A DNA stretch of 64,000 nucleotides from Hexactinellida sp. DTS-2022. Taxonomy: Eukaryota; Porifera; Hexactinellida. The position numbers were made by a program, and so were the translations under genes. Shown here in pieces: positions 3,401 to 58,045 of this stretch. How positions within the stretch are numbered: position 1 is the stretch's first letter; every line of letters begins with the position of its first letter. The notes below the pieces were generated by a model, which was not told where the DNA came from, did no database searches, and saw only the letters and a program-made list of their open reading frames with translations. The stretch lies in the NCBI GenBank assembly GCA_028753945.1, contig JAPNXP010000005.1, positions 248,001 to 312,000 on the forward strand, given 5' to 3'.

Positions 3401-6400
3401 TTCATCTACATATAAATTTTAATCCATTTGTATAACTATTTTGGAACAATAATAATAGATATTCACATAAAATATCCGTACGCTTTAAAAACACTTTAAA
3501 TAGAACTCGGTTAGTACGTACCTGGTTTAGTACAGAGTACATAATAACATTGAATGAAATTGAATTATTCATATTTAGTAGATCTTCATCGAAACCACGA
3601 AATGATTACAAAATTGAATAAAATCTAAAATTACAGCTGTGCCACTGCATATTCATTTGGAAGCACTATATTTGGTGGTTCAATTGCTAATAGTGCCTCC
3701 GCAAGAAAATGCTGTCTGCACACCTGTAATTTTAGATTTTTCTCTTCCCGATGGATCAGCTAAACGCCACCCATTTGGATATACAGTCGACTCCGCTTAA
3801 TAGAGTCACCTCGGGACCAGGTTGTTTTGACCCAATTAAGCGGAGAAATCTATTAACCGAGAATATTTTAAGCCAAAATCTAATTCCGTCCTATAAATCC
3901 TGTGAAATTTTGACCCGATTAAGCAGAAATCTATTAACCGGTGGCTCTATTAAGCGGAGTATTCACTAATCGAATAATTTATTTCGTCACTTGGTTGGAT
4001 TAGTAAGTATATACTGTGTTGTTGTTGTTTATAGAATATCTAAAGGCTAACATAAACAAACAAACTAACAAAACCGAATGTTAACTTTTGGGTTGCAACA
4101 TTGTATAATAAATGTTGTTGTTTACAAAACATCTAAAACTAACATAAACAACTAACTAATAGAATATCTGCAAAGTTCCATTCTTTGTATTACAAACACA
4201 AACCAACTTTCCGCTTAAAGTTATAGCTATTCCTTTGCTTTCTTTCAGCATGTCCTGTCCAATAGTATGCAATAGGGTCCCAATTGGTGAAAACACCTTT
4301 ACATTATGAGCTCCCATATCACTGATAACAAAGTTATTCTGTGTATCAAGGCAGAAAAACCAAGCGCAAATAACATCACAATTTTCCCCAAAAGTAATTA
4401 GCGAGTTAATGAACTCTCCTTCTACCGTAAATACGTGTATGCATAATCCATTTCTCTCCGTTAGAACGTACAGTAGATCTCTGCATAACTTAACATCACT
4501 AGGAAATAGCATTGCTTGATGCGTGATATTACGTTGATGGATTAGGTCTGTATCGTATACGCTTATTCTGTTATTAAAACAATCAGCTACGTAAACATTA
4601 TTGTCACAAACTGTAAGTTGTCTTGGCCATTTAAACTCCCCATTTTCAGAGCCAAATTTTCCCAACTGTTTAACTAGTTTTAAGTCCAGTAATGAGAATA
4701 CGAATAAAGCATGGTGACCCCAATCACAAACGAATAAACTAGTTTGATATATGGCTACACCCCATGGCGACTTAAGATGTTCCTCTCCAATATGATTCAA
4801 ACATACCCCTTTATCTGAAAATACTTGTATCAATGTCTTCGTGTGTTCAGCTACGAATATTTGGTTTGTTTTCTCATCAATCGCAACTCCAAAAGGTAGA
4901 AAATTATCATCCTGTTGGTTACCCTCATTCCAGACAGCAACAGTGTGACATTGGAATGTAGCATAATTAGGCTTAAGTCCTTTTCTCACCACGATTTCTC
5001 CCAGATTAACAATACACTCTTGTAACACACTACTATCGCATTCCCAATCAATGTGCTGTTCCTCTGTAATGCTATCCCTTAGCACACTTAATGCCCTGAT
5101 CTTATCTTCCATCTCTGCTAACATTTTCGTTCTAAGTTCTGTGAGGGAATTCTCTTTAAGAGTAGCCTGCAACTGTTCCTGTGCCTCAATTAACTGACGC
5201 ACCTTTTCACGCCTCGCTTTTTCAGCGACTTTCCTCCAACCTTGTTTCTCCCTAACTTGAGCCACCAAATCAACTCTCCTCTGTTTTAATAAATCGATAT
5301 GTCGATCGATAACCAAATTTATTTGGAACTCAATTCGGCCTCCTTCTTCTTCTATGGGGGTAACTGGGCTTTTCTCTGCCATATTTTATTCAACTGTAAT
5401 CCTATAATGCTACTTGATAAGACTATACATATTTAAATGGGATTTGGTTACTATACTAGGATACTTTCAGGAATTTATTAACCCACACAAAATTTGATAA
5501 GGGAAATATCGGTTAAGGAGTACAAGGTTTAATTCCCCTAGCCTATACAAATGCATGCAAGTGACTCCGGTTAATACGAATTCCGGATAATATGAACATA
5601 TTTCGACGGTCCCCTGGTGTTCCTATTAACAGAGTATACTGTAATTATATACTAATATTATTAAGCTTTATAACTGCTTTATAACTAACTAGCTAATATT
5701 ATTAATTAATTAAACTTTATAACTGCTTTATAACTAACTAGCTACTAATACTATCAAGCTTTATAAATGTTCTATTTATAGGTTGTACATTTTTCATTTC
5801 CCGATTGTGGATCAATTCCTCCTCCGGTTGTCATGGTGCAGAATGTAAGCTTTAGGTATGCGGACGACCAACCTTGGATTTACAGGGATTTAGATTTCGG
5901 AATCGATTTGGAAACTCGAGTGGCATTAGTGGGTCCAAATGGTGTCGGTAAATCGACACTTTTGAAATTGTTAGAAGGAGAAGTACCTGTTACAGAGGGA
6001 ATTATTAGGCGACACAACCACTTGAAAATAGGGAGATATCATCAACACCTTAAGGAGTGGTTAGATTTAAACTTATCTGCTGTGACACATTTGATGAATT
6101 GCTTTCCAGACTCAGGTAAGTAGCATTTAATTATTTGTTTACTAACTTCTTGTTGTTGTTGTTGTTGTTAGACTCAATACGACTGGTTTTGGTTGATGCA
6201 GGTGCATATTTATCTCCCCTATCAGTTGTCATAGTTACGATAATGAGAATAGTATATGCACTATAGTTATACAATCTAGTTTGATCTGCTTACTTGCTTA
6301 TAAATGACTGCAATTCAATACTAGTGCATTATATTCAACTAGAACTAACTAACTAGCTTATTGTGAACAGTTTTCGTCTGCTTTCTAATATGAAAACTTT

Positions 6401-7238
6401 TTATTATGAACAAGCCCTATGTTCCCAATTAACAACTTACATAGGGTTTGTATTAAGTTGAGTTCGCTTATTATGAAGTCTCTCTATTATGAACACAATT
6501 ATTGGTTCCTTGAATGTTCATAATAAGAACCTGACTGTATTTAGAAAAAACATTTAGTATATAACTGTACTACTACATAAGCCACCAAATTAAGTAATAC
6601 ACTAAGGAAATTTTGTGCTGTAGAAAAGTGGCCTCGAGATTCAAAAAGGTTGTTTACACATGTTCACAATAAGAACCTGGTTGTATATTTGTTTATGTTG
6701 TTGTTGTTTATATACTTATTGTTGTTTATATACTTGTTGTTGTTTACTGTTTACTATATACATAGGGGGAGAGGATGCGATGCGTAAGTCGCTGGGTCAG
6801 TTCGGTCTGACGGGCAAGCAGCAGGTGTGTCCGATGCAGAGCCTTAGCGAGGGTCAGAGGTGTCGCGTGGTGTTCGCGTGGCTCAGTTGGAACCACCCGC
6901 ATCTGATGCTGCTGGATGAGCCCACCAACCATCTGGATATGGAAACCATAGACGCACTGGCAGAGGCTGTTAACGAGTATAGCGGAGGTATGTTGTTGTT
7001 GTGTTGTTGTTGTTGTTGTTGTTGTTGTTATTATTTTTCTATTTATTGTGTTTTTGTTATTGTTATTATTAATATTGTTTTTTATTGTACTATTTTTAAA
7101 TTATTGTTGTGTTGTTGTTGTTGTTGTTTTTTATTATTTTTATTATTATTGTGTTGTTGTTGTTGTTAATAACTTGTTATTATTATTATTTTAATTGTGT
7201 TGCTGATGTTTTTTGTTATTATTTTTTAATTATTGTTG

Positions 7239-14200: not shown

Positions 14201-17200
14201 AAGGAGTACAGTCGAAACCGGTTTTTTCAAACCAATTCTTAGCATGGAAATAAAGTAAGAAAAATCCGATAGTTAGAATAAACCGATTGAAAATAAAACA
14301 AAATTGGAATTTCTTACACATTTAGAACAAATGGTTAGTTTAAAATACCGAATAGTTAAGAAAAGCCGGTGTTAGAAAAAACCGGTTTAAACTTAACACA
14401 TTTTGACGGTCCCCTTGAGTACAAACGAGGTTCTACTTATTATTATTATTAATTAACCTCTGAAGGATTAACACTGGAGATAGCTTTGCCATTTTCCTCT
14501 TGACAACGGATAGGAAGTTAAGAATATGTTGTTTAGCAGTGAGGTATGTCCAGTTAGGATTCAGAGGTTGGTACAGCTGTAGAAAGTACGGATCCGACAT
14601 GGCCGCAAAAGGAGTGCCATAGAGATCCAAATCCTACGTACACGGTCTCATTGGTTATAGCATCGATATACAGTAGGTGACCGTTATCCAATTTTTTTGC
14701 CTGGACAATCCAGTTTTTTTACAATTATTGTGCGATGTTCAGTAATTTTCTAAATTGTCCAGGTTATTTTAGCAGTTATTTTTTATTATCATCCAATTGT
14801 CTCCGATTCGCTCACATTAAACTAATAGTGTCCAGTTTTTTATAACCTGTGTCCAGGATTTTTGTCGAAATTTTTGAGAAATGTCCAGGTTTTGGCCTAA
14901 AATCCTCTGGTCACCCTAATTATACAGTAGAACCTCGTTAGTATCAATTTCCGGATAAAACGAACAAACAGTTCCACAAAATCAGGTCCCTACAATGGCT
15001 ATTTTTCCGGATAAAGTGAACAAATTTTTACCGTCCGTTGGTGTTCGTATTAACGAGGTTCTACCAGAGATGCAGCGGTCTGGACCGGACTGCGGTCCAG
15101 ACCGGGACCGGACCGGACCGACCGGTCTCAGGTCGGTCCGGTTCGCTTATTTTCAAGTGCGGTCTGGACCGGTCTAGATTAACGATATAACGGTATGGAC
15201 CGGTTCATCGGTCTGGACCGTTCATCGGTCTGGACTCATCCTAGATTGGACAAACGATCAGGCTCCAATCCGTTATTTCCCATTGTTTACAAGCACATAA
15301 GTAATAAGTAACTTATAAATACAAGTGGATATAATTAGCCACTCTACTATGCGGTCTGTAACTGTCCAAATAAGGGATATAACGGTCTGGACTGGTTCAT
15401 CAGTCTGGACCGGTCCAGACCGATCCAATATTTTGATCATACGGTCTGGACCGGTCCGGACCGTCCAGAAAAAAATCATGACGGTCCGGTCCGGTCCATG
15501 AAATTTCCGGACCGCTGCATCTCTGGGTTCTACTGTATATTTATTTTCAGGTATATATCAATGGAAATCCAGGGATATGTGGACTGTATTTTAATAAATA
15601 ACAGAAACAAAAATAATAGGCAACAATACAGAATAATTAGGGAACTTCATTTCGGACTAAACGATTAGAAGAATTGTAATATATTTGACGGCTTATTACG
15701 ATCAACAACAACAACAAGTCCCTCCTTGTTGATATCTATGCCATAAGGAAATAGGAACTCTCCAGGTCCTGTCCCTTCGTGTCCCATGGTACCGACAAGC
15801 TGTCCCTCTCTGGTGAACACTTTAACATTGTGAGCTCCCGCGTCACTAACTATAATATTCGTGTGTCTGTCCAGACAGAAATAGCGAGCATCAATCAGCT
15901 GTTCCTGTGACACAATCGAATGCATTAGGTTCCCATCTCTGGTAAATGATTGGACAGGATAAGGACAGTCATAAAACAGGACTATAAATAGAGAGGGAGC
16001 TAATTTTAGGTCGCCTAGCGTAGTGTTCTCTGTTATGTGTGGAGAGTTAAGTGGAGTCATATCGACAGACCGCAAATCCTCTACACTGAAATGAGATATG
16101 CTATTAATTAGACACATTCCTACATACAGTGTGTCTGTGTCAACTGACAGACCACGCGTGCCATACTTTGTTACAACACAACACAGAATGTCCCCAGACA
16201 CTTTATCTAGCTTGAAGATATTAAATGGATAATCACAGCTGACAAACAGGTGATGGAGTAAGACAGTTATGTAAGTAGGAAGAGACATTCCTTGTGGCTC
16301 AATTGTTCTCGAATAATTGCCTTCTTTGCCAAACACCTGAATCCTATTAGCATAATAATCACATACAAATATATCTCCATTGTCTCTGTCTATTGACAGA
16401 CCACAAGGATCATATATTTCCATCTGTCCCTCTCCTTGATTGACACCAGACCACACTGGGCTGTGTCTGTTCACGTAGGATACACCCTCACACAAGCGAC
16501 ACAATCCAGCCATGCCACCTTCCAACCACCCGTCATGCCACTCGAGCCACACAGATGGAATCCGATCCACAGTCGCCTCTAGTCCCCGTATCTTCTCGTC
16601 CAACTCTCGGGACACATTTACTAGAGTCTCATTGAGCTCATTGTGTTGGAGATTGTGTGACGCATCAGCTTTGGTCACTTTCAACTGATTCAGCTTCACC
16701 TGTCTATCCTCCACTTGTGTCTCTGCCACACGGACCACTTCATCCAGCTGTGCCACCAGTTCGAGGTGTCTGCCACGTAGCACTTGGAAATAGTACTCGA
16801 ATCGGACACGTAACTCCTCTTTCGCTATCGCCACTTCCCCTCGAATTCGTTCCAGCTCTCTGGCTGTCTCTTCTCGCATGTCCGCTACAAACTCAGTTGC
16901 CATTCTACACTCGATTAGTTTCAGTTCCTTTAACACAGTTGCATTGTCCTATCTCTGCTGGCTGCTCTTCTTATACTCACACAGCTCGCACCACGCAACA
17001 CGCCACTTCTCTGCTAGCTATCCCGTTACACCACTAACCACACAACTCTATCAGGCAATCCCAGAGCTCTCTGCTCGCTACACAGCCTGGCAACCATATG
17101 GCACTATGCTACGCATAACCACATTCCATAATCTCTCCATAGCAACAACATCTGTAGCTAGTTATGCTTAGTTTCAGTTCTCACCACTAATATGAATAAT

Positions 17201-18546
17201 TACGTGGTTCCAATGTAAGTTTTAAAATGCAATTAATGGAAATTTAAATGAGGCTAGCTACCAATGGGTATTATAAGTAAATAAGTTTCGAATCTCGCAT
17301 TTATTTCTAGTAAGAATTAGAAAAAATCTAAAATTACAGCTGTGCCGACAGAATGTCATTGCATTGGAGGCACTACATTTTGGTGGTTGGTTGGTTAAAA
17401 GTGCCTCCAAAAGAAAGTGCTGTCGGCACAGCTGTAATTTTAGATTTTATCAATTTTTTCGTTGTCTATAGTGCAACATTGGTTACGAATCACACACTAA
17501 TATATTATCTCATCCATTACGAACAAAATTAACATATTTCTCATATCTCTCCATAGCAACAACATCTGTAACTAGTTATGCTTACTTTCAGTTCTTACCA
17601 CTAATATGAATAATTATGTGGTTCTAATGTAATTTAATTCTGGACCTTATTTTTCCCCATATGGGAATATTATTTAGGTATTCTATTAACTTATAGATTA
17701 TGTATTTTAGTTCGTTTTCTAAAATAAATGTCAATTAATTAGATTGAACATTACACCATATTATAATTAGCAACACCTGGACGACATTTTTAACAAAATC
17801 TAAAATTATAGCTGTGCTGACAGCATTTTCATATTCACACAATAACCATAGTATAGTGCCTCCAAAAAATGCTGTCGGCACAGCTATAATTTTAGATTTT
17901 TCAGTACAACTTACTTGTATTATTTCTTCATCTGAAATCAGATAGAAATCCATTCCTTCCAGCTGCCACATAGAGTTTACAGCAACATGTCTGTAGTTGT
18001 TATTCAAGCTAAGAGGTGTGTCGAAAAGTGTCACAATTCGCAACTTAGGGGCTCCGGAAAACATAGCTAAACATTCCAAATGAGCGATCGGATTGTCATG
18101 TAGATATAGAATTTCAAGGCATGGAAAACCAGTCCAAAATTGTTGTTCTGGAATATTCTTAATTCTGTTGGAACTTGCATCGATTGTTTGTAAATTTGGC
18201 GCGTTCGAAAGTGGTTCTAGGTTGGCAACAAAGTTGGAATGAAAAATGCATATTTTGAGGTGTATACAGAGAGAAATCTGCGAAATATCAATCAGTTGTT
18301 GTTGCGAAACATCCAGAAATAGAATCTAAAAATATTTATTAAACTCCTATTTATACTTTTCAAGAGAGTACTCACATCTTCTAGCGATTTGATTGGCTGT
18401 TCTCCCGCCCCCTTACCCCTACTTATTAACAGAATGTCATCTGTCGCTTTAAAGAATTCTGTTTGCTTCAAACTCACATGAATATCTGTGGCACTTTCCC
18501 TGCCACTTTGTGTCGAACCTGGTCTAGAAATCTTAGTATCACTCAT
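11274..18546 (-). CDS. LRRIQ3: LRRIQ3, leucine-rich repeat and IQ-motif protein, nine exons
   Basis: Exons (5' to 3'): 18546-18376, 18325-17915, 14633-14458, 14055-13811, 13232-13001, 12710-12500, 12268-12157, 12100-11859, 11561-11274. All phases join to 695 codons plus stop. Exon 2 carries LRRs (LQTIDASSNRIKNIP, LEILYLHDNPI) and the LRR cap ending ISDEEIIQ. The IQ motif LQRYIRGWIARK is split by intron 3, and IQ motifs bind calmodulin. A basic stretch (RHKRRKRLRK), a short poly-Q and a C-terminal coiled coil follow. LRR, IQ and coil order and wording match LRRIQ3, a protein linked to cilia and sperm. Without the exon 4 donor the frame stops at 13803; exon 7 (poly-Q) and its 56 bp intron are the least certain. 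Intron 2 hosts an NHL gene. Confidence 0.82.
11648..11800. repeat. Dispersed repeat L, copy 2
   Basis: Same blocks as 818-965 (TTTGTAAATACGCTCCTAAT, ATTAATGTTACGGTATAGG). Inside the last LRRIQ3 intron. Confidence 0.7.
12298..12436. mobile_element. pogo-type MITE family D, truncated copy
   Basis: Core CCATTGTAGGGACCTGATTT and right end ACGATGTTCTACTG. In an LRRIQ3 intron. Confidence 0.7.
12731..12915. mobile_element. pogo-type MITE family E, full copy
   Basis: Ends CAGTCGACTCCGCTTAATAG and perfect complement at 12915, flanked by TA. Sits 20 bp upstream of LRRIQ3 exon 6. Confidence 0.85.
13310..13715. mobile_element. Two family F MITEs head to head in a larger palindrome
   Basis: Elements at 13343-13496 and 13575-13714 are in opposite orientation. 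Their outer and inner flanks (TTAGTCAACTAAATAGTATA and its complement near 13550) are inverted too. In LRRIQ3 intron 4. Confidence 0.7.
14111..14437. mobile_element. Family C MITE interrupted by a family J element
   Basis: Family C ends CAGTAGAACCTCGTTA at 14111 and AACGAGGTTCTACT near 14437. Between about 14210 and 14395 is a family J element with GTCGAAACCGGTTTTTTC and AAATTCCAATTTTG-type core. In LRRIQ3 intron 3. Confidence 0.7.
14671..14918. mobile_element. MITE with AGGTGACC ends
   Basis: Left CAGTAGGTGACCGTTATCCA and right CCTCTGGTCACCCTAAT are imperfect inverse repeats; the interior repeats GTCCAGG/CCTGGAC. In LRRIQ3 intron 2. Confidence 0.5.
14925..15535. mobile_element. Family D MITE containing a hAT-type insertion
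   Basis: Family D runs 14925-15064 and resumes at 15534. The interruption 15065-15525 is a separate element with 8-bp target duplication. Confidence 0.85.
15065..15525. mobile_element. hAT-type MITE with 8-bp target duplication
   Basis: Inverted ends CAGAGATGCAGCGGTC; interior is made of CGGTCTGGACCG-like palindromes, far more GC-rich than its surroundings. GGTTCTAC occurs at both 15057-15064 and 15526-15533, a perfect 8-bp duplication as expected for hAT transposition. Confidence 0.9.
15665..16903 (-). CDS. NHL-repeat coiled-coil protein 3, nested in LRRIQ3 intron 2
   Basis: Intronless, 412 aa from MATEFVADM at 16903 (11 in-frame codons upstream lack an ATG). Residues ~5-115 form a coiled coil; ~150-410 are NHL-like blades, among them LSIDRDNGDIFVCDYYANRI and PYGIDINKEGLVVVVDR. 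RING and B-box are missing. It is on the same strand as LRRIQ3 and lies wholly inside its second intron. The gene and about 0.7 kb upstream are nearly duplicated in inverse orientation at 38980-40958. It belongs to a different subfamily from the two NHL proteins in ABCF2. Confidence 0.88.
   Translation of the reverse strand: MATEFVADMREETARELERIRGEVAIAKEELRVRFEYYFQVLRGRHLELVAQLDEVVRVAETQVEDRQVKLNQLKVTKADASHNLQHNELNETLVNVSRELDEKIRGLEATVDRIPSVWLEWHDGWLEGGMAGLCRLCEGVSYVNRHSPVWSGVNQGEGQMEIYDPCGLSIDRDNGDIFVCDYYANRIQVFGKEGNYSRTIEPQGMSLPTYITVLLHHLFVSCDYPFNIFKLDKVSGDILCCVVTKYGTRGLSVDTDTLYVGMCLINSISHFSVEDLRSVDMTPLNSPHITENTTLGDLKLAPSLFIVLFYDCPYPVQSFTRDGNLMHSIVSQEQLIDARYFCLDRHTNIIVSDAGAHNVKVFTREGQLVGTMGHEGTGPGEFLFPYGIDINKEGLVVVVDRNKPSNILQFF
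16904..17650 (-). promoter_or_regulatory. Duplicated upstream region of NHL gene 3
   Basis: Two direct copies of a module with CTCCATAGCAACAACATCTG and CCACTAATATGAATAATTA (about 17135-17220 and 17540-17635) flank a family H MITE at 17322-17448. The same arrangement lies upstream of the paralogue at 39723. A promoter role is inferred from position only. Confidence 0.45.
17322..17448. mobile_element. MITE family H, copy 4
   Basis: Complete inverted ends. Present at the equivalent site in the duplicate (39166-39291), so insertion preceded duplication. Confidence 0.8.
17795..17901. mobile_element. MITE family H, copy 5
   Basis: Full inverted ends with TATAGCTGTGC variants; only 14 bp downstream of the LRRIQ3 exon 2 donor. 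Confidence 0.75.
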
Positions 18547-19214: not shown

Positions 19215-22200
19215 TTAATCCATTGAAGATCTGATTTTAGAAAGAATTTCTTCTGTCACTTTTCTGCCTTGTGGGTTCAAATTAGCTGAGAGAGTCACCC
19301 AATCAGATCTAGGCTTTGTGTCCATCTTCACAGCTTCTACAAGTATAAATAGAAGAAATACTACAGTAGACTCTGTTAGTAGGAACACCAAGGGACCGTA
19401 TTAGTATGTTCGTATTATCCGGAATTCGTATTAATCGGAGTCACTTGCATGCATTTGTATAGGCTAGGGGAATTAAACCTTGTACTCCTTAACCGATATT
19501 ACCCTTATCCGTGTTCCTACTAACAGAGTCTACTGTAGAACCTCGTTAGTAGGAACACCAGGGGACCGTCAAAATGCGTTCGCCTTATCCGGAATTCGTA
19601 TTAACCAATATCATTTGTGTTGAAAAGGCTTTGAAAGGCTCTGAAATAGTGTTCGTATTAACCTGAATTCGTATTAACCGTGTTCGTACTAACGAGGTTC
19701 TACTGTGCATCTAATGTACCATTATCAATCGTGTAAGTAATAGGAGACTGTTGATATACTTTCTTTTCAATTTCCTCAGTAGGGTTTTCTGGCTCGTATA
19801 TTTGTGGATTTGTCTCATTTTCTGAGGTAGATACTTTTTCTGCTCGTTTCGATTTCTTTTCGCGGATTTTCTGCATAAATTCTGCTACTCTCTTCCTACG
19901 GCTGTTCTGTACATTATTTCCAATCGAATCTGTTTTATAACAAACATTATACAGTCAGGTTCTTATTATGAACATTCAAGGGACTAAATATTGTGTTCAT
20001 AATAGAGAGACTTCATAATAAGCGAACTCAACTTAATACAAACCCTATGTAAGTTGTTAAATTGGGACCATAGGGCTTGTTCATAATAAAAAGAGGTTCA
20101 TATTAAACAGACTAAAAATTGTTCACAATAAGCAGACTTGACTGTAATTTGTTGTTATTTACATGAAGTTTAATAACAAAATACTGTACTTTAGGTCCAA
20201 ATATAATTTATTGTGTTAGTCAGTATTTACAAGCCATAGCTATTGTATTAAGGCCTGATAGTAAATTAATTGTTTATTAAACTTATCAAACTTGTAAACA
20301 ACAATAAATATAATATAAACAATCCATTAACAAGTACAAATAACTAAAATATCTATAAATTGTACATAAATGGTATTTCCCACATAATTATAGTTGGATT
20401 AGTACTGCCTTCATGTAAAGGTTTACAATTTTCAGCTCTCCAATCAAAATACCCATTACCAACAGAAATAACAAAGTAACTTTGCATATGAATATCTATC
20501 CAAGCACTTTCGCGTTCACTTAACCTATCTTTTGGGAAATTATTAGATACACTATACGTAATTGCATCTGAATCAGATCGCATGCGTTTAAATGGGATTT
20601 TCTTTTCACGAGGTGATAAAGTAATTGGTAGGCCTGTTTCGTCTAAAATAAGTTTTTCATAATTTGGCAGTTCTGAGTCGAGTTCTAAATTTTTTAATTT
20701 TGTATATAAACCGGATTGTCTGTCTTGAATGCTTTTGGGTCGCAATGGATTTGGAATAGATTTAGGCGCGGGAATTACTGGGTATTCAACTGTGGGAATT
20801 TTCGGATAATCAGATTTGTGTTCTGAGCATGAAAGAACAAAATATTCGTTTTTTGAGGGAGGTGACAAAAATGGAACTTGTTCCAAATCATCCGTTATTT
20901 CCATATTCCGTTTCACAACAGAATATTCATCAAAGTCAGTTTTCGGTTTGTTTACATCGCGGAATTCATCACACGTCTGATACTCCCGTTTTAGATATCT
21001 TTGTAACTGCAACTTAGTTAGTTCCAGTTCCATTTCCGGTTTAGCTTGGTTCTTATCAAACACTATTTTACTCGGGCTTTTCATTACCACATAAGGGTCT
21101 CTATCAGTGTCTTCTTTTGGTATTTCAATTTTATCGACTAAATCCCATATTTTCTCCGAATTTCCTGGATTTAATAAATCGATTGAATCTGCTTCCGGTT
21201 CAACAGGTGTTAGTTCCACATTGCTCTCGTTTATTTCTGGTAATTTCATAGCTTTGATATAATTCCCTGTTTCCGCATTCCGGAACTGAACAATACTTTT
21301 AGTTCCAGTTGTAGAAGAACCTGAATCTTCAAGTGGCGACCAAATATACTCACCAGATGAAATCCGCGGTAGAACCTCGAAATTCGAATCGCTATCAATT
21401 CTAATTCTTAGTTCCAGTTCCTTCTCGTTAGTTCCAGTTATGTCTTGATCATTTTTCCTAGGCGGTTTAGGTGGTGGTTTCTCCCCGTATATGAATTTAG
21501 GACCTGTGTCCTCGGCACTTGATTGTGACATACTCGAAAATTGTCGAATCGGTTTTGCATGCAAATGTGCCGGTATTGGTTCATAAACTGAATCTTCGAA
21601 ACTTCTTTCGTGAATAGTTTCCTCTGTTGGTTTAAACGTGTTATCGTAAATTGACGGATCAAATAGTTTTATTTGTGAATCTAAAGATAGTTTTTTAGGT
21701 GGAAATGAAGTGGTTTTTCCAAGTGGTTTCTTAATCTCAGAACTAATAGAGCTCAGTGGCGAAGTAAAATCGTGTAAAATTGGATCTTCTGTTTTAGTTG
21801 GATCCGAGCTAACACGAGTTAGTTTCAAACTGCCGTCAACTAGAATATGTGAAGCTTCAAAATTAGAATTCCTACTTTTATGATCCCGCATTTGGGATTG
21901 AGTCCAATACCCATCTTCTAATTCTAACATATCCGACGATTTCTTAGGAGTAGGATAAGTAGGGGGTTGTCTTTGTCCGATATTCTTTGTCATGTACAGA
22001 AACTGTTTCGCCGTCTCCACATGCGAATCCCGAGACATAGAAGTCTGTCCCACAAATACAGGGACTCCATCATGTAACTCGTAATTAAGCACAATCCCTT
22101 CGGTGGTTCCAATCCATAGAGAACCATGCGTCGCCATAAGAGAGCTTATTCTAATGGAATCTGTCTCGATTAAACCTTCTAACTTCATTTGTCGGAAAAA

Positions 22201-25200
22201 CCTGTTTAGGCTTATGGTTTGTAACACTTCCCTGTGTTTTACATGGAACAATAATAACTCTGGTTCTTGTTTCAAACACAACCAAATAGCCCGTCCGAAA
22301 GGAGCAGTCAGCATTACATGGAGAGATGGGTCGTTATTAATAGAAACAACTTGTTCTATTTTTAGATCGGTTATAGAGAATAAGATTGCATTATTACCAG
22401 TAAAACACCATAATTGCCCATCTATAACATGCATAGAAGATACACTATTGTCAGAAAGGTGAGTTTTAACACTACACATCCCATCCCATTCCCCTTCTGA
22501 GTCAGTTTCAAACACCATTAAATCTCCGTTCGCTAAACCGATGAACATTTTATCCACAAAAGCCTCCATACAAACAATTGCATCGGGGCATTCTGTTTCT
22601 ACATTTAAATCGATTATTGTCGGGTCGGAAGCATCAAATATATAAAGCCTACCATTTTCAGTTCCAAGCCAAACAGTAGGGTACATCCATTGTGAATATA
22701 ATGTACCGCTTTGGTGCTGGAAAGGTGGCATAAAATGTATCACGGATATCCGTTCAGTGCAAGCTTTTTGTTGTACAACCTTTTCAATGTATTTACCAGA
22801 AGTGTTGAGTATTATTATCAGCCCAAGTCGAAGATTTCCACAACAAACCCATATAACTCCATCACCAACAATTGCAGCACAATTTACACTACAATTAGCA
22901 TACATTGTATTGTATACTTGAGTGTCAACTAAAATCGGGAAATTTTGAATGGATTTTAATTTGTGTTCGGAATCAGCTGAAAATGTTAACCAACCTTGTA
23001 TGTTTTCTGGCAAAATTCTAAGACGACCATAACGGATTGTGAGAACGAATTCTTTCAGTGATTCTATGGTTCCGAGGTAAAATATGTAGCGTTTCGTTTT
23101 CGCACCACGATTCAAATCAATTTCAATCGCATGCGCTTTACTAAGTGAATTGTAAATTTCATTTGTCTTTAACTCTCTTGTGAGTTGAGAAATGCTATTT
23201 TGAACTGAAGCCTTTGATAATCCTGAATAAATCCCGTATAATTGTGTGACTAAAACATCAATCCTATGCAATATATCTAGGTCCCTTTCCTTTTGTGTTC
23301 TTTCGTCTGTTAGTATCTTATTAACTTCACGGTGTGTACGTAAATTCTCAGCTTTTTCCCTAACCTTAACATCAACGCATTCAATTGGTATTGACCATTC
23401 CAGGAAATATTGGGACAGTAGCGTTTGACTGTTATCCGGATCAGGTGTTAACATGTCAGGTGTGAATGCCTTCTTTGCGCCACGTAAACAAATTATGTGG
23501 TCGTTAAAGATAAACAGGAATCGAAACCGAGGCACTAACCGACCGTCTCTTCGAGATAATTTAATCGCCGGTTCGATTCGAAGTAATTTACGAGATGCCG
23601 AACGAAAGAAATCCTTCCCGATTGTAATTATCCGAGATTGTAGTTGTAAGAATTGTTCCTTTAATTCCGCTTCGCGACGGACTACACCAAGTCTTATTGC
23701 CATACTTTCTAAGCCGATAAGTGCGTATAGGAGCGAGCAGTAATCTTGATCAGAAGGTAATGTGAATAGTAGGAGCTCTGATATCATGTGTATGTACTTA
23801 GGGAATATTTGTAGCGGTTTTAAAAGTAAAGTTTTTAGACTTTCCTTTGACTCGAATTCGAATTTTTTGATTTGTTTTGAGAATTGTTCGTTTGAGAGTC
23901 GATACTGTAGAATACTGTCGAGAATTGAAGTGAACTGTGACGAATATTTGGAATATGAAATGGCCACAATTTCTTTTGAAAAAGCTGAAATACAATCGGG
24001 CCCAAGTTGTAAAGTTGCGATATTAAAATTAGCCGGCAGATTATGTACTTTCCCACTTATTGCCATATAGAACATTTCGTGATTATCCAAAATATCCGGT
24101 AAATACGCGAAAATGCGGTTAATTTGATCTTCAGTCAGCCCATAAGTCGCTACATTTGCTAAAATCGTGTCGCGGAGTTGTAATAGCTTTCGGATGCAAC
24201 GAATGTAATCGATTTCGGTATTGAATATTTCCTGTATAATTTTACTTCTGTTCGTATCGTTTTCACTTGCATCTTTTGGGAGAGGAGGTATTTTCGAAGG
24301 CCGGGTTAGTGAAACTGAACTTCTTATTCTATGTCGAACTAACTGAGTTGTTTCCTCAGACATTGATAGGTCTTGGTTTTCATTTTCATCAATCACAGGC
24401 GAAATAACTTCTTCATTAAAATCCGGGAATTTTATTGAATCAGAATACTCACGAAGTTCCCATTTAGATTTGTTTAAAATAGCTTTTGTTATTCTCAAAG
24501 ATTTCCTTATTGCCCTGTCGTGTAATGCGCTTAAGTCGATATAAGTTGCGTCATTACTCATCGATATTAAATCGAGATCATTTTCAGAATCGGATCCCGG
24601 ACTTATATCATATTTCGAAAAAGATATAAACTGTTTTTCAGATAATTTCCGTTTCGTTTCAAGGGATAAAAGTGGCACGCTCATTGCCCGCCCAATATTT
24701 TCATGCGTGTCGACTTCATTTGGTTCTAATGGTAGGTTTTCATTTATAATCGAATGTTCGCTTGTTCGCGATAATATGTTACTCGGGATATAGGAAAAGA
24801 ATTTCCTACCTTTTTTAATAGGTGGTTTAAGTTTATTTGTTGTCATTAGTGTATTATTCCTGAAATAAATTGTGAATAAGATTTATTCATTAATGTTACT
24901 CCTATTATTTGGTTTCAAATTACTTATAAATGCAATGCTATTGATTTGTTGGAATTATTACTGTAGAATGCTTGTAATTATGGAGTAATTTACTTTTGTT
25001 TAATTAATTGTGTTTTTTAGTATTGCCTACTATAATACTTCACAATTTATATATACAGTATACTCCGCTTAATAGAGCCACCGGTTTCTCGCTTAATTGG
25101 GTCATAAATTCACATGCTTTATAGGGCAGAATTGCAGTTTGACTCAAAAGTATTTTCGGTTAATAGATTTCTCCGCTTAATCGGATCAAACTACCCTGGA

Positions 25201-28200: not shown

Positions 28201-31200
28201 TGAAATCCATTTTCGTGGTTCATTTTCAAGTCCACTTAGTGTGCCACTTGAAAACTGTGGTATTGTATGTTTGGAACTCAAACTATTTATAAGTAAATCG
28301 ATTTCAATTCCAGTGGCTTGTAAAACGGCAGAATTATCACTTTTCAATTGTTGGATTTCATTTTGTTGATTTTGTAAATATTCGTGTAAAGTTTCTATTT
28401 CAAAATTGTTTACTTCTGATTCCTTGTTTTTCTTTTCAAAATTGTTTTTTTCTTGGATCAACAAATCTTTTGTTGTCGAAAGTTGTTCCATTTCACACCT
28501 ATATTTATCATCCATTTTCGCCTGTTTTTCTCTCAAAGATCTCATTTTGGATTTCTCATCTTCCAATTGGAATTTCAATTCAGAGTTTTCCTGCGTGATT
28601 TCTCTAAAAACAGATTCGATTTCTTTGTCTTTGTCTAACAATTCCCGCTCAAATTCGGCGCGTAAATCTAAATTTTCTCTTATAACCTGTTCGTTATTAG
28701 TTTTGTATTGATGAATTTCTCTCTGACACATTTTTACTTTTTGTTGCAATTTATTAGAAAATGTTTCGAAATGTCGCCTATTTTCCTTCTCTCTGCTTAG
28801 TAAATTTGTTAATTCGGACACTTTTTGTCTCTCAATCGATAATTCTATTCCCATTTGTTCTCTGCTACCACTTGCGGCTTCCAAATCTGATCTATAATTC
28901 CTAATTTCAGATTCCAGAGATTTGGCGTAAGACAACATTTGTTCCAATCGATTCCTGAGTTCTTCTTTAATGTGTCGAGTTGTTTCCAACTCAATTTCTA
29001 AAGTGGCCTTTCTGCCACTTGTCCTATCAGGTGTCAAACTATATTTGTGTCGCTCAAAATCAGGTGTCGCCATCGCGGAATCTAAACTAACTTGAGATGA
29101 CCACCTTTTCGGGACATTCCTATTTTTAGCAACAATTCGATTTGTCCCTTCTTCAATCCGTTCCAACTGATTTTGCAACTCGATAACTCGATCTTCAATC
29201 CCATTGGCTGTCTCCATAGGCCTATTGTCAATATCAGACAGCTGTTGATTCATTGTCGCAATTCGAGAAGATAAATTAGTGGAGCCTTCGCGTATTTTTA
29301 ACTTTTCAAGTTTACCTTCTACTTCGCTAGCTTTCAATGACAAATCCTGTATTATTTTCTGTTGAGTTGTGTCAGCTTGTCGAGGTGGTGGTTCTGATTT
29401 CTCAAATTGTGTCACTGCTTTTTCCAAAAGACCCGCCAATCGAATGCTTTGCGCCTCTGCCTCTTGGCGTAGCTGTCTTTCTTTGTTCAAGTCAGAATAC
29501 ATAGTTTCAGTTCCAGTTTCATTTCCGGAGCTGAGTTGAGAATCTGGGTATTTGTAGTGGGGCACGAGATGTGTGGCATCACCCTGGCTTTTCAGCCTTG
29601 ACGACACTCTACGTTGATTGGAATGCATGCTTTTTGCAATTTATATCACACAAATGATAATTATTACGACAAGATATAACTCTAATTATGGGAGGTTTTA
29701 AACTGTAATAAAATAACAATCCTAGCTACCAATCGAGAACAAAGGAATCCTTGGAATGTGAACTAATCTACAATTAGCTTTTTTGTCAAAAATCTTCATC
29801 CCAGTTTTCAGGAACACTAACAAACGCTTTTTCAGACACTACATGTTGTAAAGTATCGCCCCAATTTTGATCCCCATTTTGAGAATCTTCCTTTTCACAA
29901 TCGTCCGAATCGGTGTCAGCTGGTTCCTCAACCATTAGTTCCACTTTATAATGTGTTAGGTCCGTATTCAGTTTGGAATACTGCGCATTCATAACACTGT
30001 TCATTATCTGATCTTCAGTGCCAAACATTTTGATTTGTGGGTAATCCATAAGTCGATCATAAATTGAAACGAAACAGGTGACATACCCTGGTGAATCGCC
30101 CGCTTCAAAATACGTTCCATTCGACTCAAACGGTTGTTCGAATATATCTTCTTCCCTGACGCCTTGAGATTCACTCAGTTTCCATTCGTTCTTTGCTATT
30201 TGTTGCGCGTAGTATTCAACGTCAATCAAAAGTTGTCTTTCAGGCGTATGATTTGGATCTTTCACTGGGAATTCAATGCAAATAATCTCTTTATACACGT
30301 ATGTAGGTTCTGTATTGGTAGAATCCTTATTCAACTGTACGCTGGTGGGAATATCGGTTGGTTCCAGTTTAGGTTCCAGTTTAGGTTCCGTTGGTATAAT
30401 GCTTAGTTCCAGTATATTTATATCTGTGAACAGAGATTCCCTGGGACTACAATCAGGGATTGGATCTGGCTGGTCAATTGGTGGTGTTGGATTATCCCAG
30501 TTGATATTCCCATTATCTCCTAACCGGATGTGAGAAGTTAGTTCCGGTTGTAGTTCCGGTTTGAGTGTGAAGAAAGCAGCCTGTGAGCAGTACCCGACTT
30601 CCTCGAATCCTATGGGGGGTTCCCCCACCCCGCAGAACTCGACCTGGTACCGGAAGTGCCGGCACTGGGCCTGGCACCAGCTCATGAACTCCTCTCGGTT
30701 CCATTCGAACTTGTGGTCGGGGTGGCGGAACCCGCTGAAGTTCTTGAAGAGCACGTTAAACTCACAATTGGGAGTCGTCACAAACACGTATTTAGGCTTC
30801 AAGGTGCCAAATATGGCGGAGGGAAGTTGCGACAATGTGTCCTCTTCCAGATGCTCTATCACCTCGATAAGCGACACAAATTCAACACCTTCCAATCTCG
30901 AATCCCATTCGGTAAGAGAGCCACAGTACAGCCCTATTTTCAGAGGTGTCAAACGTTTATAAAGATACTCACTTGTGACTGGTTCTGCCACTGAATCGTG
31001 TCGCTCTAAAACCGATCTATCGATATCGACGCCAATAATTTCCTGTAAATATCCACCTGACAAGTTTCGAAGTGTCCAAATAAACTTACACTCAGCGCAG
31101 CCAAAATCCACTAATTTAGTCGGTGAACACTTTTTGACGTACTCGACACCAAGTGCGTATCTTTGCCTATAAAGTGGTGGACTGAAACTAATCTCCTCTT

Positions 31201-34200
31201 CGGTTTCAGTTCCAATTTGCTGCAATACGATTGGTTCCGGATATTTAGATTTGACCTCATTTGGATCTTCGGTTGATACAGGTGCATATTTATCTCCCCT
31301 ATCTGTTGTCATAGTTACGATAATGAGAATTTCATATGCACTGTAGTTATAGTATCTAATTATGCAAAAGCAATACTTGCTTATAAATGACTGCAATTCA
31401 ATACTAGTGCATTATATGAACTAACTAGCTTATTGTGGACAGTTTTTCGTTTGCTTACTAATTAAATATGAAAACTTTTTATTATGAACAAGCCCTATGG
31501 TCCCAAATTAACAACTTACATAGGGTTTGTATTAAAAGTTGAGTTCGCTTATTATAAAGTTTCTCTATTATGAACACAATTATGGTCCCTTGAATGTTCA
31601 TAATAAGAACCTGACTGTATTTTATAGCCTAACTAATTGTCTGTTCCAAATGGATTTATGTCAGATTTTCTATACGACACATAGAGGTATGTGGGATTGG
31701 TTTCAAGCATTCCTTTATACTTGATTGGTAGCTAGGATTGTAATTCCAATGGTGTAATAAATTCATTTGTACTTTTGTAGGCATATAAATTCAGGCGTCA
31801 ATGTTGGTTTGAACTATTATATTATTCAGTTCATAATGGCGAGTCCTATCAGCAAATTATAATCAAAAGAAATTTACAGTCAACTCTCGTTATAACGAAG
31901 TGCTTGAGACCTGTAAATCCCTTCGTTATATCCGGATATTCGTTATAAGCGGATAATAATTAATGCATTTGGGGGAAAATCTCCATTTCATTATATCCGA
32001 CTTTATTATAACGGGAGTTCACTATATATTTTCCCAATTTTTAAGCCTATAGGTTAGCAAATACAATTCTAAATTGTCACATACCAACGTTACTATGGCT
32101 ACACAACAAAATATGTCACCTAAGACAGATACCACTCCCACACCTTTTTCTGACAAAGAGGCCACTCGTAAAGAGGACACATCTTTCGGTGTAATATTTC
32201 AGCCCCTCCTTTATAAACAGCGGTACAATCTAGCTATTCGGTTTATAGAGAAAGTGTCACCTGTGAAATTAGTAGATTTTGGTTGTGCAGAGTGTAAATT
32301 CATTTGGCAATTGAGAGATAGAAATTTTGCATTCTTGCAGTATATAATCGGTGTTGATATTGACAAGCCTACTCTCAAAAGGTGTCAAAATGTGGCGAAA
32401 CCCAATAAGGGGAGTATGAATACCGAACGTTTGACACCTCTGAAAATAGGGCTGTATTGTGGCTCTCTTACCGAATGGGATTCGAGACTGGAAGGTGTTG
32501 AATTTGTGTCGCTTATCGAGGTGATAGAGCACCTGGAAGAGGACACATTGTCGCAACTGCCCTCCGCCATATTTGGCACCTTGAAGCCTAAATACGTGTT
32601 TGTGACGACTCCCAATTGTGAGTTTAACGTGCTCTTCAAGAACTTCAGCGGGTTCCGCCACCCCGACCACAAGTTCGAATGGAACCGAGAGGAGTTCATG
32701 AGCTGGTGCCAGGCCCAGTGCCGGCACTTCCGGTACCAGGTCGAGTTCTGCGGGGTGGGGGAACCCCCCATAGGATTCGAGGAAGTCGGCTACTGCTCAC
32801 AGGCTGCTTTCTTCACACTCAAACCGGAACTAACTTCTCACATCCGGTTAGGAGATAATACAAAGGGAGATATGGAACTAACCAATGAATCCCAGCAACC
32901 GGAAACAAAGACAAATGGAACTGAAACTATAGTTCCGATTCAAACCGAGGATCCCACTCCAAAACCAGAATCCAATATGGAACCAACTGAGTCCAATATA
33001 GAACTACAACCGGAACTAGTCTACAGAGAAGTTATTTGTAAAAAATTTCCGTTGAAAACGGACGAGCCTAGCTCAGCTCTCAATTTGGAACTATAACCGG
33101 AACTAACTCCTAAGGTCTAGTAATCTTCGTTTTTTTGCTAATTATTTTGCTCTTTTTTTTAGTGAATATATAGCTTTAGTATCCTTATATTTTATGGCAT
33201 ATTTAAAGGGGTTTTAGTGGTGTTAAGTGGCATAACATACCTTGTTGTTGTGTATTCTTTTCATCAAATTGTGTCTCAATTTGTGGCTTAAAACTGCCAC
33301 TTAATAGCAACTGTTTTATGTGTTTGTAGTACGGAAATAGGAAATGGTCGAAATTTAGAAAATCGAATGATGAGTTGTATTGTTGCTTTGTTTTGATAAT
33401 AATTTCGAGTTGGTTGCCTTTTTCACTAACGTGTCTAGCTGTTTTGACGATAATATTATGCATTCTTTCGGTCCCAGGCGTTGTCAGGGAAGCTGGAATG
33501 TATAGTTCCGGTTTAGGTATATAAGGTGTGAAGTCTGTGATTTGATTGGTGGATTGCTCAGCTTGTAGTTGTCTCTAGAAATGGTAGAAACAAATAAATC
33601 TGTGTTAAATGTGTGAATTTAATTTCTCCATAGCTTTTGCTTGTATAACTAAATGATGAGAGAAATAATCACAACAAATTATACACAAGTAAATGTAAAC
33701 AAACACAATTATTTAAATTCCAGAAATTTTTTATAAATATTTATAAAAATTCAGAAATATTCTATTTATAAAAATTTAGAAAAAATCACTTACCTTTGGT
33801 TCAAAACCTGAACTACCATGTTATATTCTTACATTCCTGAATGTTCTTCTGTATCCATGGAGTGTCTTCATTCCTGTGTTAAACCCATATGGACCCAAAA
33901 ACCTAAATTCCAACTCACGTTTTGGTTGTCAAGTTTTTCATAGTTAGTTCCAGTCTTTAGTTCCGGTTCATAACTGAACGGAATTTGCGCAAATTTTCGC
34001 GTTCTCCTTTTCTCCACTTCTTCCTCCCCAATCTCAATCTCACTTAGTTCCACATTTAGTTCCATATACCGCTCTTCGTCACATTTTAGTTCCAATTGTA
34101 TTTCCTCTTTTGAAGGTTTGAATTTCAAATTGGATTTCAAACCGAATTTTGAGTGATCATCTAGAAAAGCCCTTGCATCATATCTATCCACCAAAAGTGA

Positions 34201-38732: not shown

Positions 38733-38979
38733 TGAGTCCTTATAATATGGAACTTAATCTGGAACTATCACTTATTTACTTCTTTCTTCTTATTGTATCA
38801 ATTATTTAGGTTTTAGACATTTAGCGATCAAAATTAATATTTGATTTACTTACCGTATAAAAAATGTCAATTTATCGAAACATTCCAATTACCCAAATGT
38901 GTATCTATGGGGACAAAATAGCTGTACTGTGTAGATATATTTATGAGACATTCGTATGGGTATTTTAATATATGGAACT

Positions 38980-40958
38980 TACATTATAACCACATTATTA
39001 TTCATATTAGTGGTAAGAACTGAAACTAAACATAACTAGTTACAGATGTTGTTGCTATGGAGAGATATGAGAAATATGTATAAATTTTGTTCGTAATGGA
39101 TGGGATAATATATTAGTGTGTGATTCGTAACCAATGTTGCACTATAGACAACGAAAACATTGAGAAAATCTAAAATTACAGCTGTGCCGAAAGGACTATC
39201 TTTTGGAGGCACATTTAATCAACCAACCACCAAATTGTAGTGCCTCCAAAGGACGGACATTCTGTCGGCACAGCTGTAATTTTAGATTTTCTTAATTAAA
39301 ATTAGAAATATAAATGAGAAATCAGAAATCAGCATACTTACTTATTTACTTATAATACCCGTTGGAAGCTAGTCTCATTTAAATTTCCATTAATTGCATT
39401 TTAAAACTTACATTGGAACCACGTAATTATTCATATTAGTGGTGAGAACTGAAACTAAGCATAACTAGTTACAGATGTTGTTGCTATGGAGAGATTATGG
39501 AATGTGGTTATGCGTAGCATAGTGCCATATGGTTGCCAGGCTGTGTAGCGAGCAGAGAGCTCTGGGATTGCCTGATAGAGTTGTGTGGTTAGTGGTGTAA
39601 CGGGATAGCTAGCAGAGAAGTGGCCTGTTGCGTGGTGCGAGCTGTGTGAGTATAAGAAGAGCAGCCAGCAGAGATAGGACAATGCAACTGTGTTAAAGGA
39701 ACTGAAACTAATCGAGAGTAGAATGGCAACTGAGTTTGTAGCGGACATGCGAGAAGAGACAGCCAGAGAGCTGGAACGAATTCGAGGCGAAGTGGTGATA
39801 GCGAAAGAGGAGTTACGTGTCCGATTCGAGTACTATTTCCAAGTGCTACATGGCAGACACCTCGAACTGGTGGCACAGCTGGATGAAGTGGTCCGTGTGG
39901 CAGAGACACGAGTGGAGGACAGACAGGTGAAACTGAATCAGTTGAAAGTGACCAAAGCTGAGGTGTCACACAATCTCCAACACAATGAGCTCAATGAGAC
40001 TCTAGTAAATGTGTCCCGAGAGTTGGACGAGAAGATACGGGGACTAGAGGCGACTGTGGATCGGATTCCATCTGTGTGGCTCGAGTGGCATGACGGGTGG
40101 TTGGAAGGTGGCATGGCTGGATTGTGTCGCTTGTGTGAGGGTGTATCCTATGTGAACAGACACAACCCAGTGTGGTCTGGTGTCAATCAAGGAAAGGGAC
40201 AGATGGAAATATATGATCCTTATGGTCTGTCAATAGACAGAGACAATGGGGATATATTCGTGTGCGATTGGGCTCTTGATAGGATTCAGGTGTTTGGCAA
40301 AGAAGGCAATTATTCTAGAACAATTAAGCCACAAGGAATGACTTTTCCTGATTCCATAACTGTCTCACTCCATCACCTGTTTGTCAGCTGTGATTATCCA
40401 GATAGTATCTACAAGCTAGATAAAGTGTCTGGGGACATTCTGTGTTGTGTTAGAATAGGGTATTACATGCGTGGTCTGTCAGTTGACACAGACACACTGT
40501 ATGCAGGAATGTGTGAGACTAATAGCATATCTCATTTGAGTGTTGAGGATTTGCGGTCTGTCGATAAGACTACACTTAACTCTCCACATATAACAGAGGA
40601 CACTAGGCTATGGGACCTAAAATTAGCTCCCTCTCTATTTATAGTCCTGTTTGTTGGGTGTCCCTATTCTGTCCAATCATTTTCCAGAGATGGGAACCTA
40701 ATGCATTCGATTGTGTCACAAGAACAGCTGATTAGAGCTTGGTATTTCTGTCTGGACAGACACACGAATATTATAGTTAGTGACTGGGGAGCTAATAGTG
40801 TTAAAGTGTTCAACAGAGAGGGACAGCTTGTCGGTACCATGGGACACGAAGGGACAGGACCTGGAGAGTTCCTATCTCCTCAAGGCGTAGATATCAACAA
40901 GGAGGGACTTGTTGTTGTTGTTGATTGGAAGCCGTCCCATATGCTACAATTTTTCTAA
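38980..40958 (+). repeat. Inverted duplicate of 15665-17640
   Basis: The NHL gene, its upstream module, the family H MITE (39166-39291) and the second copy of the module all match 15665-17640 in reverse orientation and order, with scattered substitutions. Confidence 0.88.
39723..40958 (+). CDS. NHL-repeat coiled-coil protein 4
   Basis: 411 aa, intronless, starting MATEFVADM. Near-copy of the protein encoded at 15665-16903: same coiled coil (about 5-115) and NHL propeller (about 150-410). Differences cluster in loops between blades (for example YYANRI versus WALDRI). RING and B-box are absent. It lies between the seven-exon gene and the 3' end of the PH-SH2 gene, which converges on it from the other strand (64 bp between stop codons). 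Both copies keep an open frame, so the duplication is recent or both are selected. Confidence 0.9.
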   Translation: MATEFVADMREETARELERIRGEVVIAKEELRVRFEYYFQVLHGRHLELVAQLDEVVRVAETRVEDRQVKLNQLKVTKAEVSHNLQHNELNETLVNVSRELDEKIRGLEATVDRIPSVWLEWHDGWLEGGMAGLCRLCEGVSYVNRHNPVWSGVNQGKGQMEIYDPYGLSIDRDNGDIFVCDWALDRIQVFGKEGNYSRTIKPQGMTFPDSITVSLHHLFVSCDYPDSIYKLDKVSGDILCCVRIGYYMRGLSVDTDTLYAGMCETNSISHLSVEDLRSVDKTTLNSPHITEDTRLWDLKLAPSLFIVLFVGCPYSVQSFSRDGNLMHSIVSQEQLIRAWYFCLDRHTNIIVSDWGANSVKVFNREGQLVGTMGHEGTGPGEFLSPQGVDINKEGLVVVVDWKPSHMLQFF

Positions 40959-56162: not shown

Positions 56163-58045
56163 TGGTGTATCACCAAAAAGGCAGACTTAATTGCGATTTT
56201 TTAAACTGTATAAATACTGACCTTTTTGAATTTTATTTAGAAAAAAAATTTGAGCTCTATCAGTTATTTCTCAAATTAATTGGAATATATCTCATAATTA
56301 ATAAGTTATACAAGTTATTTTAAGTTAATTTAATAAGTTATGATAATATGATATATATGATATGTTTTAAAGCAACAATATCATACAGCTCCTTACCTGG
56401 TTACGACCCTGTGCTGCGGAATGGGGGAGCTAGGAGGTGTGCTGGGGACAGGAGAGGAACACAGATAGTCTGTAACAATATTGGAATAGTTGGGGGAGTC
56501 AGTGGAGTGGCGGGGGGAAGTGGTGATGTTGTGACCCACGGAGTGAAGCTTACGGATTGGTATCTACACATTAGAGACTGATTAATGGGGATACTCGTTA
56601 GTAGAACACTATAGTATAACCTCGTTAGTACGAACACGGTTAGTATGAATTTCCGGATAAGACGAACTAACAGTTCCACAAAATCAGGTCCCTCCCTACA
56701 ATGGCTATTCAATTGGTATTACTCCGGATAAAGTGAAAAATTTACCGTCCGTTGGTGTTCGTATTAACGAGGTTCTACTGTATTAGCAAGCAAATTTTCT
56801 ACAAATACGACTTGCTATTAACTAATAGCTATATAGGTTATTAGCTATATAGCAATAGCTATAGTACCTTGGCTGGATATTCCATTGGCTTGGGTTGCGT
56901 TTGTACCGGAGCACTGGTTGGTATCTGGTATATGGGATCGTTATTTCGCGGGATCTGATACACGTTATCAGAACTCCCGTTAGAAGAGGCGTTGCTAGAG
57001 GAGCTGTTCCTAAACGGGAGTTAAACGGTAAATACATAGGTTTATATAGTGAGTTGTACAGGAGTTAAACGGTAAATACATATGTTTACATAGTGAGTTG
57101 TACAGGAGTTAAACGGTAAATACATAGGTTTACATAGTGAGTTGTACAGGAGTTAAACGGTAAATACATATGTTTACATAGTGAGTTGTACAGGAGTTAA
57201 ACGGTAAATACATAGGTTTACATAGTGAGTTGTACAGGAGTTAAACGGTAAATACATATGTTTACATAGTGAGTTATACAGTAGTTAAACGGTAAATACA
57301 TATGTTTATATAGTGAGTTGTACAGTAGTTAAACGGTAAATACATATGTTTATATAGTGAGTTGTACAGGAGTTAAACGGTAAATACATAGGGTTATATA
57401 GTGAGTTATACAGTAGTTAAACGGTAAATACATATGGTTATATAGTGAGTTATACAATAGTTAAACAATTAATTAATTTGTTTATATAGCTAACTATACA
57501 GTAGTTAAACAATAAAATCATATGTTTATATATCTAATTATACGGTAGTTAAATGATAATTTAATGTATGTATGTATGTATGTATGCATAGCGAGTTGTA
57601 CAGTAGTTAAACAGCAAATTTCTATGTATAAATATTTATTATACAGTAATTAAACATAAAACAGTAATTAAACATAAAACAGTAGTTAAACAGTAAACTA
57701 ATACATTCCTATAGCAGATTAAACAGTAACTAAACATATAATTATTACCTAATAGCTACTATAACACTGCACTCACCGCTTGCTATGACTGCCACTTAAT
57801 CGCGTGGCCTCTTTGGTGTCCGGAAGAGAACCGAGAGAGGAGTGTTTGGAACTGGAACTGGAACTAGAACTGGAACCATGAGAGAGAGATTTCCTGACGC
57901 GAAGAGGAGGCGATATACCGTGTTGTTGAGGTGTTACATCATGCTGTCGTTGTTGTTGTTGTTGTTGTTGTAGTTGCAGTTGTTGCTGAGGTGATATACC
58001 ATGTTGTTGAGATGGTATATCATGTTGTTGTTGTTGTTGATGTCG

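Follow-up and report, generated by a model that had tools for sequence, protein, structure and literature searches.

The DNA analysed here (the ‘window’) is a stretch of 64,000 nucleotides, bases 248001-312000 of contig C14, in a genome of 112.4 Mb assembled in 18 contigs. It carries two HEN1-type methyltransferase genes: gene A (29786-31312, minus strand), a single open frame of 508 aa with a long C-terminal extension, delineated from its open frame and by alignment, and gene B (32095-33096, plus strand), a single open frame of 333 aa identified by phmmer matches. Both frames are uninterrupted, and the genes lie head-to-head, pointing outward across a divergent intergenic spacer of 782 bp (31313-32094) that holds short transposon relics. 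The protein encoded by gene B matches the human small RNA 2'-O-methyltransferase 4xcx (phmmer E 5.8e-47), the HEN1 protein of 3htx (E 2.8e-32) and other Hen1 structures, for a total of eight distinct sequences; its residues 32-241 constitute the methyltransferase-domain match to 4xcx, and residues 39-241 the match to 5wy0. Pfam Methyltransf_23 scores 19.8 bits for A and 22.5 bits for B, under the cut-off of 27. The assignment of both genes to the HENMT1/HEN1 family, as predicted small-RNA 2'-O-methyltransferases, holds, and the initial annotation was correct both in calling them HENMT1 copies and in describing them as head-to-head. A whole-genome search with protein A (extended by four codons upstream of its ATG; E up to 10) returned three HEN1-like places, namely A, B and one fragment of 20 aa (taken up below with the repeated start of gene A), and no further HEN1 gene; A and B therefore look like the sole gene-length HEN1 genes of the genome.

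At four aligned positions (E142, E145, H146 and H192 of B), the ExxEH and DHKFEW motifs of human HENMT1 (4xcx) have the same residues as B; we take these to be the metal ligands of HEN1 enzymes (ExxEH plus a downstream histidine). All four lie within the near-identical tract described below (B residues 111-255) and are consequently present in A as well. SAM motif I, which reads VDFGCAECKFIW in both proteins, lies outside that tract, in the flank on its N-terminal side. As judged from the aligned proteins, the two predicted enzymes have a presumed metal-binding catalytic half in common, and differ in the SAM-motif region, the N terminus and the C-terminal tail.

The initial annotation had pointed to a stretch of about 430 bp over the catalytic core, almost identical between the genes with only a few substitutions, and flanked by sequence of lower similarity. 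Such a tract is indeed present, as delimited by BLAST, silent-site counts and a change-point analysis: it occupies 30512-30957 in A (minus strand; 446 nt, including an extra 12-nt repeat unit) and 32426-32859 in B (plus strand; 434 nt), and the copies differ by five substitutions and one 12-bp indel. Its longest ungapped part is identical at 402 of 407 bases (BLAST), and beyond a 12-bp insertion in A a further 38 of 38 bases are identical, up to the end of the tract. The insertion, located near the 3' end, is an in-frame repeat unit of the CCGGAACTA type that adds four residues to A. All five substitutions are silent, in codons starting at A positions 30928, 30895, 30853, 30826 and 30595; they are skewed towards the 5' third of the tract (four in 36 silent sites, as against one in 62; Fisher p 0.059), a distribution that hints at more than one event. 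Outside the tract the similarity falls on both sides, as had been claimed: on the N-terminal side the proteins are diverged but still alignable, and on the C-terminal side they can be aligned in short motifs only. A change-point search with free limits placed the boundaries at alignment columns 119-266, with a log-likelihood ratio of 47.3 that compares with values of at most 10.8 in 300 permutations.

The initial annotation had also specified that equal silent divergence inside and outside the core would point to protein-level constraint only. Nei-Gojobori counts on the A/B codon alignment (144 codons in the tract, 78 in the N-side flank and 71 in the C-side flank) gave a very different outcome. 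Within the tract, silent changes number 5.0 in 98.5 sites (pS 0.051, dS 0.053), and the 333.5 sites that alter the amino acid are free of change. The N-side flank, which carries SAM motif I (VDFGC) and spans alignment columns 41-118 (30958-31189 in A, minus strand; 32194-32425 in B, plus strand), has accumulated 48.6 silent changes in 53.3 sites, so that its pS of 0.91 is saturated, with a pN of 0.35. The C-side flank is nearly saturated as well (35.3 silent changes in 47.5 sites, pS 0.74, dS approximately 3.4, pN 0.42), but these figures are rough because the alignment there is weak and gappy, and it is the N-side flank that bears the argument. Where both proteins carry the same residue (Met and Trp set aside), the codons themselves agree in 135 of 140 cases within the tract, as against 26 of 71 beyond it (Fisher 7.8e-22), and the best run of such codons was equalled in none of 20,000 permutations in a maximal-run test. 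The occurrence of five silent and zero amino-acid substitutions has a probability of about 0.0006 if changes are placed on sites at random; selection thus seems to have acted on both genes since the most recent homogenisation of the tract.

What is observed, then, is a pair of paralogues that are homologous on both sides of a sharply bounded tract and highly diverged in those flanks. The explanation that best accounts for this pattern, and the one held with high confidence, is duplication, divergence and a later ectopic conversion of the 434-bp stretch. An ancient head-to-head duplication of a HEN1 gene would have produced two paralogues whose silent sites became saturated, or nearly so; later, ectopic (interlocus) gene conversion between the inverted arms, which lie on one chromosome at a distance of approximately 1.5 kb, would have pasted the 434-bp stretch of one paralogue over that of its partner. 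Such copying would presumably have proceeded by homologous-recombination repair, either once or repeatedly after the duplication, and selection would then have maintained both copies as functional genes. The conversion proposed in the initial annotation is thus supported by the contrast in dS, by codon identity and by permutation, in that silent divergence is far lower inside the tract than in either homologous flank and the run of identity exceeds anything produced by randomly placed differences. Close inverted gene pairs are, moreover, classic substrates for conversion, as described in a Drosophila review (PMC3924832). The 12-bp indel is counted against conversion, since it leaves the tract less than perfectly clean. 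Since A/B homology resumes, in diverged form, on both sides of the tract, the core is unlikely to have been duplicated by itself.

The obvious competing account is that purifying selection alone, at the level of protein or RNA, has kept the catalytic core similar. The presence of conserved enzyme motifs in the tract and the silent nature of all five substitutions are what such selection would leave; against this, changed silent sites are some 18-fold rarer in the tract than in the N-side flank (0.051 versus 0.911), that flank carries an equally conserved SAM motif and yet has saturated silent sites, and the identity runs on to B residue 255, beyond the 4xcx domain match, which stops at residue 241. 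Conversion is favoured because constraint on a domain cannot preserve silent sites over one half and let them saturate over the other; the contrast in silent sites refutes constraint on the protein alone, and the broader account by selection is extremely improbable. Near-identical inverted arms are also a known problem in genome assembly, and one arm might duplicate the other through mis-joining or over-polishing. This is very unlikely, although slightly less so: the arms differ by five substitutions and an in-frame 12-bp indel, their flanks differ, both frames are uninterrupted, and random errors would not all be silent.

A more serious possibility concerns the route by which the sequence was copied, which might have been replication template switching in a quasi-palindrome, or patching by a reverse-transcribed mRNA, rather than the repair of a double-strand break. 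The inverted arms, 1468 bp apart, would suit such routes, and because both genes are single frames a cDNA donor could not be told apart from a genomic one; neither route has left a positive mark, however, and ordinary ectopic conversion fits the same pattern, so that these routes are considered unlikely without being negligible. The idea that a hairpin RNA formed from the inverted arms is the main point of the arrangement was discarded by argument, given that genes pointing outward yield transcripts carrying the same sense strand.

The initial annotation had further stated that the tract is GC-richer than its surroundings, as biased conversion would produce. The first part of this statement stands, with a GC content of 0.521 in the tract versus 0.39-0.41 in the coding flanks. 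Along gene A, in steps of 15 codons, GC3 is 0.33 at both ends of the tract and reaches 0.93 at codons 190-219 (0-based), a peak that falls within the part of the tract, about 230 nt long, in which A and B show no differences. For comparison, mechanical frames of at least 150 codons (antisense included) were collected from 20 control stretches of 10 kb, with at least one on each of the 18 contigs. In the 14 AT-rich controls (GC below 0.38), none of 26 frames attained a GC3 of 0.75 in any stretch of 60 codons, the maximum being 0.70; in the six GC-richer samples, 17 of 49 frames reached 0.85. Among 20 frames scored within the window itself, A and B are highest (GC3 0.87), followed at 0.75 by a frame that contains an ABCF exon about 24 kb from the tract (ABC_tran domain; ARB1 E 1.6e-27, ABCF1 E 9.5e-27). 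A genome search with 251 bases of this exon region found no second copy of it. GC-rich patches can therefore arise where there is no near-identical paralogue, and the composition of the tract is by itself no proof of biased conversion.

That long-repeated, GC-biased conversion made the core GC-rich can accordingly be entertained as an addition to the main explanation, at rather less than an even prospect. It would agree with the position of the GC3 peak in the difference-free part of the tract and with the absence of comparable frames among the AT-rich controls; against it stand the ABCF exon for which no second copy was found, the commonness of GC-rich frames elsewhere in the genome, and the point, made in the Drosophila review, that although GC is higher inside conversion tracts, base composition may favour conversion instead of being produced by it (PMC3924832). 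The cause given in the initial annotation for the elevated GC is, with the ABCF exon as a counterexample, weakly supported.

The spacer between the genes has a history of its own. Its two halves share no mirror homology beyond short words, and no remnant of the original inverted duplication is present there, a point that weighs against the proposed history of the pair. Positions 31428-31622 correspond to a short element with many copies in the genome (at least 42 matching pieces, with 40 of 2106 candidates scored). Its left end, TACAGTCAGGT, is the inverse of its right end, ACCTGACTGTA, in three of five other copies that were aligned, and one base differs in the remaining two, as in a TA-flanked, MITE-like element, which is what this sequence appears to be; next to gene A, the element lacks the outer portion of its left repeat. 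A second apparent element with inverted ends, recognised by eye, lies at approximately 31879-32022 (its ends match partially, at 22 of 26 positions). The truncated MITE-like element also forms part of a larger block of 355 bp (31268-31622) that includes the start of gene A, its first 15 codons and its 5' flank. A second copy of this block, 87.7% identical, lies 25 kb away within an ABCF gene, where it separates two exon-like stretches (6188-6542); besides the truncated element it contains 160 bp spanning the start codon of A, and it is the only other occurrence among the places listed. One end of the block coincides with the MITE terminus; some 10 bp inside the opposite end, gene A has the sequence TACAGGT (31277), which resembles a MITE end and which reads TGCAGGT in the copy at 6188-6542. 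On the strength of this shared block, the start of gene A would either have been copied from the ABCF site or have been carried to it.

The HEN1 pair is itself enclosed by an inverted pair of NHL-repeat genes (15665-17635 and 38976-40958, 93% identical), an arrangement that might be taken for a larger palindrome or a large inverted duplication. The NHL-repeat family is large and dispersed, with several copies on this contig (at least 66 matching pieces, with 40 of 1758 candidates scored), and the identity of the enclosing pair (0.945) falls within the spread of values (0.919-0.957) obtained when 12 copies were compared with one another; the pair is no closer than the family at large, and the larger palindrome was rejected. 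Another inverted NHL pair, on contig C10, is separated by only 1.4 kb, and its identity of 0.951 is equalled by other pairs. Such a close inverted pair shows no pair-specific similarity, so that exchange of the kind seen at the HEN1 locus is not general in this genome.

Several further observations were made in the window and the genome. The motif GGAACT/AGTTCC, noticed around the HEN1 genes, occurs 97 times in the window; in a k-mer scan it is outranked by other words, judged by eye to be parts of dispersed repeats, and no meaning was found for it. Tandem-repeat arrays are located at 57014-57654 (self-match steps of 44 bp) and 60338-61215 (several spacings). Positions 20356-24882 form a single frame of 1509 codons with RhoGEF, PH_19 and WD40_2 domains, and the genome also has six open frames with Piwi domains, of 895-1052 aa; together these frames suggest that many of its genes may be long and intron-poor. 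The genome contains 16 homeodomain places, and a search of it for light-harvesting proteins gave no match. The corresponding search for Wnt likewise gave no match, but its control was positive in none of 14 genomes and the result is therefore uninformative. The GC content is strongly patchy (0.31-0.50 among twenty 10-kb samples; 36.9% over the total of 200 kb). The glass sponge Oopsacas minuta is reported to lack Wnt and to have 36% GC (PMC10280926), and the homeodomain places, the Piwi domains, the missing light-harvesting match and the 36.9% GC seen here would fit such a sponge. Xenoturbella bocki was set aside as a candidate on account of its reported GC of 43% (PMC11521371).

Recurrent GC-biased conversion might keep the metal-binding module common to both predicted enzymes while the SAM-side, N-terminal and C-terminal parts become specialised. 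This proposal is doubtful as it stands; were it true, the specialised parts might serve, for example, different Argonaute or Piwi partners, with half of the enzyme evolving in concert and the remainder diverging. Under the main explanation, the locus already offers a clean natural case of ‘module-limited’ concerted evolution, in an enzyme of a small-RNA pathway and in what is probably an early-branching animal, and its importance would be greater if the two enzymes served different small-RNA classes. There is also a practical consequence, in that trees of A and B will mislead if they are built on the catalytic core.

Conversion between inverted neighbouring paralogues is already well known, and the HEN1 pair is a fresh example of it; among the literature titles and abstract openings listed, none concerns a converted HEN1 pair, which is a weak negative. 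Relative to animal HENMT1/HEN1, the pair has the same methyltransferase domain, here carried by two single-frame genes that are unlike at the N terminus and in the C-terminal tail. In the Drosophila Hsp70 and Amylase pairs homogenisation covers the greater part of the coding region, whereas A and B share one 434-bp module only and are otherwise highly diverged. Those pairs (Hsp70Aa/Ab, and the proximal and distal Amylase genes, both inverted or ‘palindromic’) are likewise linked, mirror-image paralogues with conversion of coding sequence, as set out in the review (PMC3924832). Unlike the palindromes of the primate X chromosome, which are large, the HEN1 pair involves a short coding tract, seen in one genome, so that any bias is unpolarised; the likeness lies in inverted arms of high identity whose GC exceeds that of the flanks, a combination that the primate study reads as GC-biased conversion (PMC8981503).
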